Notes under the pieces: generated by a model
What the model was told of the DNA's origin: nothing
What the model saw: only the letters and a program-made list of their open reading frames with translations
Database searches by the model: none
Assembly (NCBI GenBank): GCA_021160245.1
Contig: JAGHCW010000125.1
Span: 1-17,854 of the forward strand
Direction of reading: 5' to 3'
From: a bacterium
GTDB taxonomy: Bacteria > B130-G9
Length of the DNA stretch: 17,854 nt
In this document: one piece after another, positions 1,585 to 15,087 of the stretch
Position numbering within the stretch: the stretch's first letter is position 1
Layout: each line of letters begins with the position of its first letter
Made by a program: the position numbers and the translations under genes

Positions 1585-1614
1585 CGTAGGGGCGGTTCGT
1601 GAGCCGCTCCTACG
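1585..1614. repeat. GC-rich palindrome overlapping the csrA stop codon
   Basis: CGTAGGGGCGG (1585-1595) pairs with CCGCTCCTACG (1604-1614) with one non-Watson-Crick position, around an eight-base loop. The csrA stop codon (1610-1612, minus strand) lies inside the stem. There is no T-run on either side, so it is not a classical terminator. It resembles the GTAGGGGCGG...CCGCCCCTAC type of short palindrome dispersed in many environmental genomes; that resemblance is from memory, and only one copy is present in this window. It could also protect the 3' end of the fliW-csrA message. Confidence 0.6.
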
Positions 1615-1852
1615 GCGTAATGGTCGTTTCAACCTTCTTGAGCTTGGGCAGCTCGAGCGGACGTTTTTCGCCGATCATCGCGGCGATATTCTCACGCTTA
1701 ATTGCCTCATAGACTTCTTTTCGGTGAACGGAGAGCGACCTCGGCGCCGCAATTCCGAGCCGGACCTCATGCGGACCAACGTCAACGATCATCACCTCGA
1801 TGTTATCGCCGATGATAATGCTCTGGTTTCGTTTTCTCGTCAGAACCAGCAT
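1610..1852 (-). CDS. csrA: CsrA, translational regulator
   Basis: The 80-residue protein opens with MLVLTRKRNQSIIIGDNIEV and continues with VRLGIAAPRSLSVHRKEVYEAI, the standard CsrA core, including the RNA-contacting LTRK near the N-terminus and the region around APRSLSVHR. It is slightly longer than the 61-residue enterobacterial form, with a basic tail. CsrA dimers bind GGA motifs in mRNA leaders and usually block ribosome access. The start overlaps the fliW stop by one base (TAATG), so the two are translationally coupled. A fliW-csrA pair usually means CsrA controls flagellin synthesis, and both flagellin genes in this window carry suitable leader sites. Confidence 0.97.
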   Translation of the reverse strand: MLVLTRKRNQSIIIGDNIEVMIVDVGPHEVRLGIAAPRSLSVHRKEVYEAIKRENIAAMIGEKRPLELPKLKKVETTITP

Positions 1853-2295
1853 TAGCGTGCCTGCCCGTCATCTTTGGGAATTATCCGGCAGCGGAGGTCG
1901 AGGCTCATATCCTCAAGCACTACTTGCCGACCGAGCCGTTCTTTGGTGTTGATAACGACTGGTGCTCTTAAGTTCATCCGCATCTCTCGCGGGTCTTCAG
2001 GAACGACGACGATGGCGAGAACGAGGCCATCTGAAGATTTTTGGAGTTTGAGGCTCTTGGCAACCCGGTCCGGCAGTTGAACCACATACTCTGGTTTCAC
2101 TACCGTAGGGTTAATCAAGAGGAAGGCGAGATTGCTCTGGCTAACCGATTGCAGCCAAACGAAGGGACTTTCCGCCTCATGCGGTACGAGTATATAGCGA
2201 TTAGAGTCCGGAAAGCCCAAAATCCCCTCGTCAAAATGGATTATCTGACTGTCATCGACCTCAACATGGCCGAATCGTCCACTCTCTATTCTCAT
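1852..2295 (-). CDS. fliW: FliW, flagellar assembly factor and CsrA antagonist
   Basis: The 147-residue sequence shows FliW hallmarks: FGHVEVDDSQIIHFDEGILGF at the N-terminus, the LGFPDSNRYILVPHE segment, and FLLINPTVVKPEYVV mid-protein, ending with a basic tail. In Bacillus, FliW binds the C-terminal region of unassembled flagellin and, when free, binds CsrA and relieves repression of flagellin translation. The ATG at 2295 has GGAGG (2299-2303 on the complementary strand) just upstream. It lies 64 bases downstream of the carbamoyltransferase stop on the same strand and may share its transcript. Confidence 0.96.
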   Translation of the reverse strand: MRIESGRFGHVEVDDSQIIHFDEGILGFPDSNRYILVPHEAESPFVWLQSVSQSNLAFLLINPTVVKPEYVVQLPDRVAKSLKLQKSSDGLVLAIVVVPEDPREMRMNLRAPVVINTKERLGRQVVLEDMSLDLRCRIIPKDDGQAR

Positions 2296-10259: not shown

Positions 10260-10455
10260 GTGGCCATCATAGCAGGATTCTTCATTCAACCAAGCAGCTC
10301 CCGGGCCGGCAGACAAATGGAGCTGACAATCTTGCTAAAGTTCCCCAATCGATCTCCGATAAATAACAGGTGTGATTGCAGAGCGCACTATGCACGAGTC
10401 AAAAATGGAGCGAGGAGGTGATGGTTAAAGAGCAATAAACTCCGGCTAAGTAGTT

Positions 10456-10473
10456 CGTCTCTATTTTGAGACG
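10456..10473 (+). promoter_or_regulatory. Short hairpin upstream of flagellin 1
   Basis: CGTCTC (10456-10461) and GAGACG (10468-10473) form a perfect six-base stem with loop TATTTT. A GGA overlaps its 3' end (10473-10475). Whether it is transcribed depends on the unknown promoter position. It may be part of the leader structure or a protein-binding dyad. Confidence 0.35.
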
Positions 10474-10484
10474 GAAATCAGACA

Positions 10485-10534
10485 GGGCAAGGATGCCCAC
10501 CATTGCTACATATTGTGGCGAATATCACGGAGGA
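10485..10534 (+). promoter_or_regulatory. Predicted CsrA-binding leader of flagellin 1
   Basis: GGGC (10485-10488) and GCCC (10495-10498) form a four-base stem with loop AAGGAT. The sequence CAAGGATG across the loop matches the core of the known CsrA high-affinity consensus (ACARGGAUGU), with GGA at 10491-10493. A second GGA lies in the Shine-Dalgarno GGAGGA (10529-10534), 38 bases downstream, within the range a CsrA dimer is known to bridge. This predicts translational repression relieved by FliW. Confidence 0.6.
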
Positions 10535-10540
10535 AACAAC

Positions 10541-12028
10541 ATGAACGCAGAGACACAAGCACTTGGTATCCAGAACATGCTCTCTAAGATGAGCAGGGAT
10601 ATCGCAAAGGTAGAGAACCGAGTCAGTACCGGTTACAAAGTCACGAAGGCCTCAGACAGTCCCGCCGACTACGTTATCTCCCAGATGATGGGCAGGACTA
10701 TTTCTGGTCTGCAAACCGCCAAGGTCAACGTTGGCAATGCTAGCAACCTGGTCTCCGTCGCTGAGGGCGGTCTAAAAGGTATTAAAGACCTTCTGGGCGA
10801 GATGCGTGCGACCTCGCTAACGGCATCCGACGCCACGAAGTCAGGCGCAGAGAGAGCCGCTTTGAGGCAGACGATTGCGGAGCAAATGAAGGAGATCGAC
10901 GACATGGTCAAGCAGACCACGTGGGGCGGCAAGCAGCTGCTCAACGGCGCCGGACTCTTCGCCTTCCAGACGGGAGCGAATCCTGGTGACACGACGTCCG
11001 TCAAGATCGATCAGAACTTCTTTGCAAGAGAGATAGGTGTGGGTGACACAGGAGCAGCGGCTCAGGTGGCCTGGACGGCGGACTCAGATGGCCGAAATGT
11101 CTATGTCGGCGATTACAGCGCGGTTGAGGATGCCGAGTGGACAATTGAGTTCACAAGCGCCGGGACGTTCAATGTTACTAGCACGACGGTCGGCGAGCCA
11201 CCCACAGCGACAGGTGCAATTGGCTCACAGTATTCCGATGCCGGCATCCAATTTCAGCTTGCGGCAAGTGCCAATTCAACCGACTATGCAGTCGGTGATA
11301 GGGTAACTTTCTCAAGTAGCGCTTCCGTCATCGACTCGGTTACGGCGAATCGGGCAAAGGGCACAACTGGTAATGCCGCCGCAACAGCAGACAGCGCCTA
11401 CACCGGTGAAGTTGACGGGACGATTCAGATCAATATCACGGGTTCTGGTAACGCGACTGTCATCTCCTCACAGAGCCAGTTGACGGGTTCGTTCACATTC
11501 AGTGGTACCGATGGCTCAACGCAGTCCGGTACGTTGACTATCGACTCGGATGGACAGGCGACAATTACTGCGGGTTCGTGGGATTCTGGCATCACGATCC
11601 AGTTCAGCGACAATGACCAGATAGGAACCACGAATGACTTTATATCGGGCGATAGTTTCTCGTTTGATGTGGAGGCCGCTGCGGTGTCTGCTCCGGACAC
11701 AACGGGCGTGATCGGTGATAGCGGCATTAGCCTTGACACAGCGGCTGCGGCATCGACGTCTATTGCGCACATCGACAAGGCGATCAAAACGGTTGAGACT
11801 TATGAGACCCTCCTCGGTTCCACCTCCCGTAGGCTGGAGATCAGGGAGGCATCTCTATCAACCATGGTGGCGAACAACTCAGCAGCCATGGACCGTATTG
11901 TCAAGGCCGACCTGATGGAGGAGCAGTTGAACTTGACGAAGTACACCGTCCAGCAGCAGGCGGCACTCGCGATGTTCATGCACGCCAACACGCAGATGCA
12001 GACGGCGTTGTCAGTTCTGAGGATATAG
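10541..12028 (+). CDS. fliC: Flagellin, copy 1
   Basis: The 495-residue filament protein has the conserved N-terminal D0/D1 helices (residues 1-135: ENRVSTGYKVTKASDSPADYVIS, NASNLVSVAEGGLKGIKDLLGEMR) and C-terminal D1/D0 helices (about 405-495: VKADLMEEQLNLTKYTVQQQ, ANTQMQTALSVLRI). The surface-exposed middle, about 150-400, is Ser/Thr/Gly/Asp-rich beta sequence containing two similar modules. The ATG at 10541 is preceded by GGAGGA; an in-frame upstream start at 10466 lies before this site and lacks flagellin sequence. No signal peptide is seen, as expected for export by the flagellar type III system. It aligns without gaps to copy 2, roughly three quarters identical by eye. Confidence 0.97.
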   Translation: MNAETQALGIQNMLSKMSRDIAKVENRVSTGYKVTKASDSPADYVISQMMGRTISGLQTAKVNVGNASNLVSVAEGGLKGIKDLLGEMRATSLTASDATKSGAERAALRQTIAEQMKEIDDMVKQTTWGGKQLLNGAGLFAFQTGANPGDTTSVKIDQNFFAREIGVGDTGAAAQVAWTADSDGRNVYVGDYSAVEDAEWTIEFTSAGTFNVTSTTVGEPPTATGAIGSQYSDAGIQFQLAASANSTDYAVGDRVTFSSSASVIDSVTANRAKGTTGNAAATADSAYTGEVDGTIQINITGSGNATVISSQSQLTGSFTFSGTDGSTQSGTLTIDSDGQATITAGSWDSGITIQFSDNDQIGTTNDFISGDSFSFDVEAAAVSAPDTTGVIGDSGISLDTAAAASTSIAHIDKAIKTVETYETLLGSTSRRLEIREASLSTMVANNSAAMDRIVKADLMEEQLNLTKYTVQQQAALAMFMHANTQMQTALSVLRI

Positions 12029-12050: not shown

Positions 12051-12087
12051 ATGATTTGGGGCGGGCCTGCTGGCTCGCCCCAATCAT
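12051..12087 (+). terminator. Strong hairpin between flagellin 1 and fliS 1
   Basis: ATGATTTGGGGCGGGC (12051-12066) pairs with GCTCGCCCCAATCAT (12073-12087), allowing one bulge and one G-T pair, with a six-base loop. No T-run follows. It probably acts as a partial terminator or 3' stabiliser, giving much more flagellin than chaperone from one transcript. Confidence 0.6.
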
Positions 12088-13511: not shown

Positions 13512-13526
13512 TGGCACACATCGTGC
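13512..13526 (+). promoter_or_regulatory. Predicted sigma-54 (-24/-12) promoter of flagellin 2
   Basis: TGGCACACATCGTGC matches the sigma-54 consensus TGGCACG-N4-TTGC at the invariant GG (13513-13514) and GC (13525-13526) with correct spacing; two other positions differ. Transcription would start near 13538, leaving a leader of about 62 bases. Sigma-54 drives late flagellar genes in several lineages. No comparable match was found upstream of flagellin 1. Confidence 0.6.
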
Positions 13527-13538
13527 TTAGTCGGTTAG

Positions 13539-13599: not shown

Positions 13600-15087
13600 A
13601 TGAATGCAGAGACACAGGCTGTTGGAATCCAGAACATGCTGTCGCTTTTGTCGAAGGACATAAGCAAGACGGAGAATAGGGTATCCACCGGCTACAGGGT
13701 ACAGAAGGCTTCAGACAACCCTGCTGACTACGTTATCTCCCAGATGATGAGCAAGACGATTGCGGGATTGGGAACTGCCAGGGTCAACGTGGGCAACGCC
13801 AGCAATCTGGTTTCGGTCGCGGAGGGTGGGCTGAAAGGCATCAAAGACCTACTCGGGTCAATGAGGGCCACGGCGCTTACAGCCTCAGATGCTACAAAGT
13901 CAGGAGCTGAGCGCGAGGCGCTAAGTGGCACGATTCACGAGCAGATGAAAGAAATTGATGACATGGTCAGGCAGACGACGTGGGGCGGAAGACAGCTGCT
14001 CAACGGGGCCGGACTCTTCAACTTCCAGACAGGCGCGAATCCTGGAGACACAACATCCGTCAAGATCGACCAGAGCTTCTATGCTAGGGAGATAGGTGTC
14101 AGCACGACGGGGGCGGCGGCAGAGGTAACTTGGACGCCAGATGGAAACGGCCGAAACATGTATATCACTGATTATGGGGCAGTTGAGGACGCAGAGTGGA
14201 CGTTGGAGTTCACAAGCGCCGGCACCTTCAACGTGAGCAGCTCGACGGTTTACGAGCCGCCAACGGCCACAGGCACGGTGGGATCAGCCTACTCAGATGC
14301 CGGCATTCAGTTCCAACTCGAGGCAAGCGGCAACTCGGTTGACTATGCAGTGGGCGATCGGGTCGTCTTCTCGACCAGCTCTTCCGTGATAGGCGCTGCA
14401 GAGGCACGTCGAAGCAAAGGCACTGCTGGAAATGTCTCCGCGACAGCCGCTAGCAGATACCAGGGAGAGACGGATGGCAAAATCCAAATCTATATCACGA
14501 CATCCGGCAATGCGACGGTCATCTCCTCGCAAAGTCAGTTGACCGCGTCGTTCACATTCACCGGCACAGACGGTTCTCAATACAATGGCAGTCTGTCGCT
14601 AGACTCCACGGGAAAGGCGGTCATCACGGACGGCAGCTGGGATTCCGGCATAACGATTCAGTTCAGCGATTATGACCAGGTCGGCAGCACAAATGACTTC
14701 ATATCGGGCGACAGTTTTGTGCTCGACGCTGAGGCTTCTACTATCACGGCGCCAGATTCATCAGGCGTGATTGGCGCGGATGGCATTAGTCTTGAGACCG
14801 CCGCCTCCTCCGCCACTTCTGTGGCACACATTGACCGAGCGATAGCAATGGTCGAGTCATTCGAGACGCTTTTGGGCTCCACGTCCCAGAGACTGCAAGT
14901 CAGGGAATCGTCGCTCGCGACTATGATCGAGAACAACACAGCAGCGCGGGACCGGATCATCAAGGCCGACTTGATTGAGGAGCAATTGAACCTCACGAAG
15001 TACACTGTCCAGCAGCAAGCGGCACTTGCCATGTTCATGCATGCTAACGCGCAGATGCAGACGGCGCTCTCAGTCCTGAGGATGTAG
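13600..15087 (+). CDS. fliC: Flagellin, copy 2
   Basis: This 495-residue paralog of copy 1 has the same length and no gaps in alignment. The N-terminal helices (MNAETQAVGIQNMLS, NASNLVSVAEGGLKGIKDLLG) and the C-terminal helices (IKADLIEEQLNLTKYTVQQQ, ANAQMQTALSVLRM) are nearly identical, while surface residues in the middle vary. AAGGAGG (13587-13593) precedes the ATG. Having its own candidate sigma-54 promoter suggests separate timing or dosage from copy 1. Both proteins should polymerise into the same kind of filament; whether they mix or occupy different zones is unknown. Confidence 0.97.
   Translation: MNAETQAVGIQNMLSLLSKDISKTENRVSTGYRVQKASDNPADYVISQMMSKTIAGLGTARVNVGNASNLVSVAEGGLKGIKDLLGSMRATALTASDATKSGAEREALSGTIHEQMKEIDDMVRQTTWGGRQLLNGAGLFNFQTGANPGDTTSVKIDQSFYAREIGVSTTGAAAEVTWTPDGNGRNMYITDYGAVEDAEWTLEFTSAGTFNVSSSTVYEPPTATGTVGSAYSDAGIQFQLEASGNSVDYAVGDRVVFSTSSSVIGAAEARRSKGTAGNVSATAASRYQGETDGKIQIYITTSGNATVISSQSQLTASFTFTGTDGSQYNGSLSLDSTGKAVITDGSWDSGITIQFSDYDQVGSTNDFISGDSFVLDAEASTITAPDSSGVIGADGISLETAASSATSVAHIDRAIAMVESFETLLGSTSQRLQVRESSLATMIENNTAARDRIIKADLIEEQLNLTKYTVQQQAALAMFMHANAQMQTALSVLRM

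Follow-up and report, generated by a model that had tools for sequence, protein, structure and literature searches.

Does the mRNA of the first flagellin gene in this stretch of DNA carry a leader through which CsrA could repress translation until FliW relieves the repression, as in the circuit known from Bacillus? The window, 17,854 nucleotides in all, is one contig (C67) of the 3.43-Mb genome of a member of Candidatus Coatesbacteria (G000). We compared it with three further genomes of this group (G001-G003; n = 4 with that of the window), all from a single family. Close relatives of flagellin 1 were found in only two further public contigs of the genome collection, both from Candidatus Coatesbacteria. 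Pfam families matched csrA, fliW, flagellin 1, fliS, flaG, flagellin 2 and a second fliS in the window. Flagellin 1 (495 aa, 10541-12028, forward strand) has Flagellin_N and Flagellin_C domains and a start codon common to its relatives. Directly 3' of it lies a GC-rich inverted repeat, GGGGCGGGCC..GGCTCGCCCC (12058-12084), which is terminator-like but lacks a clear T run. The first flagellin of G003 (L035, 288-1771) shows a change of frame between two overlapping matches, which reflects either a sequencing error or a broken gene.

The two proteins of the circuit are present. The sequence-only reading had placed fliW and csrA in the same window, and both match their Pfam families: fliW (1852-2295, reverse strand; PF02623, E = 1.7e-38) matches the solved FliW of 5dmb, and csrA (1610-1852, reverse strand, 80 aa; PF02599, E = 1.4e-23) overlaps the fliW stop by one base. 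This is the only csrA of the genome and directly follows its only fliW; likewise, each of the four genomes has one fliW with csrA directly after it, and both genes are intact. Among solved structures, the CsrA chain in the FliW-CsrA complex 5dmb matches this CsrA best. The RNA-binding residue R44 is conserved in all four CsrA proteins (77-80 aa), and so are the FliW contacts I51 and N55 and the RENIAA motif of the C-terminal extension. FliW binding requires N55 in both C. jejuni and B. subtilis, and V/I51 is also a contact of FliW (PMC7829508).

The leader itself appears to be long. A sigma-28-type promoter, TAAAGTT ... CCGATAA (10336-10362, forward strand), is found in all four genomes with an identical spacing of 15 nt (TAAAGTT-N15-..CGATAA) and nearly all columns invariant, and this genome encodes a FliA homologue above the curated cut-off. 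The promoter predicts a start at ~10369 and a leader of ~172 nt (171-176 nt across the four genomes). The sequence-only reading depended on a transcript that starts no further downstream than 10498; the predicted start lies well upstream, so the hairpin described below should be transcribed. Between the two lies GGAGGUGA (10414-10421, forward strand), a perfect complement of the anti-Shine-Dalgarno sequence, which is invariant in the four leaders (L032, L033 and L035 in G001-G003) and precedes the start codon of flagellin 1 by 127-131 nt. An upstream open reading frame was rejected as its explanation, since we sought a conserved start codon after it in the four leaders and found none. We also dropped a switch in which a single pyrimidine strand would pair with either the Shine-Dalgarno or GGAGGUGA, because the partners differ between genomes; in G000 the pairing of the Shine-Dalgarno varies with the stretch that is folded. 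Possible roles for GGAGGUGA are a ribosome standby site, an mRNA stabiliser or a third CsrA site. Further downstream, each of the four leaders is predicted to form a hairpin (H1; 10454-10475, forward strand) of differing sequence: its position is kept, and only 3 of 25 columns are invariant across 10453-10474.

We then come to the hairpin for which a CsrA site had been proposed. It is exactly as claimed: GGGCAAGGATGCCC occupies 10485-10498 of the forward strand (H2, GGGC-AAGGAU-GCCC), with the loop GGA at 10491-10493. It forms in every fold tried, the stem being GGGC/GCCC (4 bp) around the hexaloop AAGGAU or one pair longer (5 bp) around AGGA. The loop GGA is 99% unpaired in the ensemble of G000, and is unpaired in the ensembles of all four genomes. 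Selection of CsrA ligands by SELEX gave the consensus RUACARGGAUGU, with a 4-bp stem and a hexaloop in most winners (PMC7652899). H2 fits this consensus, with a complete core (CAAGGAUG) and a loop of the expected size, which makes it the predicted high-affinity site (BS1). The flagellin-1 frame is open upstream of the ATG in G000, with a TTG at 10466; we nonetheless rejected H2 as coding sequence, since in G001 the ATG is immediately preceded by a stop codon and homologues begin at that same ATG.

Could such a match be an accident, with a core resembling a CsrA site and a short GC hairpin falling together before one gene? Dinucleotide shuffles of the leader yield CARGGATG in 1.2% of cases and an ANGGAN hexaloop closed by at least 4 bp in 1.7%, and there are 24 copies of the core GCAMGGATGC in the genome of 3.43 Mb. 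Of the 24 cores, the one before flagellin 1 alone combines the full GGGC/GCCC stem with a position immediately ahead of a Shine-Dalgarno and start codon. One leader by itself is thus suggestive, and weak evidence for a CsrA site; the case is strong because H2 is conserved in the phylum. The loop GGA, whose conservation in close relatives the sequence-only reading had left to be checked, is kept in all four genomes (GGGCAMGGATGCCC), and 13 of the 14 columns of H2 are invariant (binomial 3e-9 on the background rate, a figure that ignores relatedness). The sole changed column turns AAGGA into ACGGA in G001, which retains an ANGGA site. The four leaders are 46-79% identical, and outside the named elements 18% of their columns are invariant. 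Such conservation in leaders that are only about half identical contradicts a chance origin, which we regard as barely credible. Searches of the leader against Rfam gave no match near any gathering score, and the plasmid collection gave none.

The second site overlaps the ribosome-binding site. As the sequence-only reading had it, a second GGA lies in the Shine-Dalgarno 38 nt from the first (GGAGGA at 10529-10534). It is part of TCACGGAGGAA (10525-10535, forward strand), the Shine-Dalgarno and second predicted CsrA site (BS2), in which 11 of 11 columns are invariant in the four genomes, all of which keep TCACGGAGGA. Almost certainly, the mRNA of the main flagellin has in its leader two sites at which CsrA would dock. 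The distance between the two GGAs is 38-39 nt in all four genomes, within the 10-63 nt across which CsrA bridging works (PMC7652899).

This long spacing is explained by a third hairpin (H3; 10503-10521, forward strand), missed in the sequence-only reading, which lies between the sites and would shorten the spacer. H3 pairs 8 bp in G000 and 5-7 bp in the relatives, and its position is conserved across the four genomes while its sequence is not. It is more stable than shuffles in each of them. Four of its pairs are changed on both sides, above every slid control, a level reached by 17 of 500 shuffles; coming from four sequences, this covariation is moderate evidence for the predicted pairing. 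The linker between the sites is 30-31 nt, of which H3 folds away 16-19 nt, leaving an effective 11-15 nt, like the short linkers found elsewhere. With CsrA able to span 10-63 nt (PMC7652899), H3 is unlikely to be indispensable, and tuning is its more probable role.

An alternative is that H2 is a structural or mRNA-stability element, acting in 5' protection or as a ribosome standby, and that its GGA is incidental. The leader is indeed long and structured, and the upstream GGAGGUGA might bind a 30S subunit in the manner of the cry3A STAB-SD (PMC4113751). However, an RNase J above the cut-off was not found in the four genomes, which weakens both the STAB-SD reading of GGAGGUGA and this alternative. 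Moreover, H1 and H3 keep their structure without their sequence, as purely structural elements would, whereas in H2 the loop is nearly invariant as well as the stem. We therefore consider this explanation very unlikely, all the more as ANGGA is elsewhere far above other loop motifs, mainly where FliW exists.

The latter result comes from a survey of flagellin leaders in diverse genomes, mostly from different families. The region from -150 to -25 of flagellin genes, with start codons assigned by rule, was searched for hairpins whose loop contains ANGGA. Such a hairpin precedes 69 of 110 flagellin genes in FliW-positive genomes and 3 of 34 in FliW-negative ones, a class defined by FliW only and irrespective of CsrA (Fisher exact test p = 2e-8, relatedness ignored); all three of the latter have minimal stems. 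The FliW-positive leaders came from two independent samples treated by the same rule, with the hairpin in 42 of 70 leaders in the first (6.7 expected from shuffles) and in 27 of 40 in the second. Counted by genome and in a narrow window (-62 to -22), the figures are 48 of 78 FliW-positive against 2 of 25 FliW-negative genomes (p = 2e-6, relatedness ignored). In that narrow window, control loop motifs occur in 0-4 of the 110 FliW-positive leaders, against 59 for ANGGA. The overlapping control AGGNA scored higher in one comparison, because it shares letters with AAGGAA loops. Hence, GGA-loop leaders occur mostly where FliW occurs. In around 37% of the flagellin leaders of FliW-positive genomes no such hairpin was detected, and some flagellins may therefore lie outside the circuit. 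Four genomes (G273, G267, G174 and G179) were scored FliW-negative although their families have FliW; most of their leaders still carry a GGA-loop hairpin (L177, L179, L198, L192 and L206), which suggests that their fliW genes were missed in incomplete assemblies. A literature search that covered few subscription papers found no description of the breadth of this leader signature.

The survey also bears on the spacing of the two sites. In the middle half of the surveyed leaders, 22-27 nt separate the two GGAs. Long-linker leaders of several unrelated genomes also hold a hairpin in the linker, and about half of them exceed the shuffle expectation. Among unrelated leaders, L175, L153, L126, L148, L218 and L232 have a long linker from the GGA hairpin to the Shine-Dalgarno with an additional hairpin inside it. 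We tentatively raise the possibility of a spacing rule for flagellin CsrA leaders, of which H3 would be one case: where the distance from the loop site to the Shine-Dalgarno has grown, the excess would fold into its own hairpin and the bridged path would stay about constant. If this is true, finding a leader of this kind would also point to a fliW gene absent from an incomplete assembly.

The second flagellin differs in its predicted promoter and in its leader. Flagellin 2 (495 aa, 13600-15087, forward strand; matched by Pfam) is preceded by a sigma-54-type promoter, TGGCACACATCGTGCT (13512-13527, forward strand), and the site TGGCAC-N6-TGCT is conserved in all four genomes (leaders L032, L034 and L035 in the relatives). 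RpoN was found in three of the four, including this one. A conserved GGA hairpin was sought in the four flagellin-2 leaders and not found: G000 has one, G001 a weak one, and G002 and G003 none, while the leaders keep ANGGA at the Shine-Dalgarno. The conserved sigma-54-type promoter of flagellin 2 makes it probable that each flagellin is produced at its own stage of assembly.

The contrast between a flagellin-1 leader that looks like a strong site and a flagellin-2 leader that looks like a weak one would also fit another role. CsrA may bind the flagellin-1 leader mainly as an RNA sponge, where abundant flagellin mRNA titrates CsrA off other targets and repression of flagellin is secondary. There is a precedent, as the flaA mRNA of C. 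jejuni is both a target that CsrA represses and an antagonist of CsrA (PMC4894983). Yet, BS2 on the Shine-Dalgarno is perfectly conserved and a pure sponge would not need it, an argument tempered by the fact that the Shine-Dalgarno is also needed for translation. We hold a predominant sponge role to be highly improbable.

We conclude, with a probability of about 0.88, that the flagellin-1 leader is a two-site CsrA operator in the known CsrA-FliW flagellin checkpoint, as had been proposed. The anatomy of the leader and its conservation, the intact CsrA and FliW, and the link between such leaders and FliW across bacteria are established. From these we infer CsrA binding, repression and relief by FliW in this organism. 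Sigma-28 would transcribe the flagellin-1 mRNA with its predicted leader of ~172 nt. Judging by the anatomy of this leader, one CsrA dimer would dock with high affinity on the exposed AAGGAU loop of H2 and reach over to the GGA in the Shine-Dalgarno, thereby blocking the ribosome; the folding of H3 would keep both sites within easy reach. By homology with known systems, completion of the hook and export of flagellin would free FliW from flagellin, and free FliW would bind the C-terminal helix of CsrA (N55) and lift repression. A build-up of flagellin would then recapture FliW and bring repression back. The circuit is already known; what is new is the phylum, the geometry given by the covarying extra hairpin H3, and the breadth of the leader signature. 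An uncultured candidate phylum thus gains a specific and testable checkpoint of flagellum assembly. So far it had only been suggested (PMC4894983) that controlling flagellum assembly is the conserved, perhaps original, function of CsrA with FliW; the survey now adds comparative evidence.

Several known systems resemble this leader. In the glgC leader of E. coli, a hairpin-loop site also tethers the CsrA dimer, which bridges to the Shine-Dalgarno (PMC7652899), but glgC is not flagellar and the antagonists are the CsrB/C sRNAs, not FliW. The fliC leader of Clostridioides difficile also has a predicted ACAAGGATGT site; its BS1 is TGACAAGGATGT and its BS2 lies in the Shine-Dalgarno. These sites were predicted on a 91-nt leader, for which the accessible part of that report describes no intervening hairpin (PMC8523840). 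The hag system of Bacillus subtilis shares the two CsrA sites with BS2 on the Shine-Dalgarno (Yakhnin 2007; Mukherjee 2011; PMC6529632), as well as the adjacent fliW-csrA and a CsrA with a C-terminal extension and N55. Its sites are ~24 nt apart (A51-A55 and C75-G82, as quoted in PMC8523840), against 38-39 nt and an intervening hairpin in Coatesbacteria, and the second, sigma-54 flagellin has no counterpart in hag as described in the accessible portions of the literature. The flaA leader of Campylobacter jejuni (Dugar 2016, PMC4894983) also has a pair of ANGGA sites, of which one lies over the ribosome-binding site, a structure conserved with compensatory changes, and FliW as antagonist; there too the major flagellin is transcribed from sigma-28 and the minor one, flaB, from sigma-54. 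That leader is 45 nt long with two stem-loops, whereas the one predicted in Coatesbacteria is ~172 nt and differs by a BS2 in a largely open Shine-Dalgarno, the extra hairpin between the sites and the upstream GGAGGUGA. The sequence-only reading had proposed the repress-and-relieve circuit of Bacillus: the checkpoint part of this proposal is supported, but the wiring is closer to Campylobacter flaA/flaB than to Bacillus hag, given the sigma-54 promoter of flagellin 2 and the absence of the conserved hairpin from its leader.
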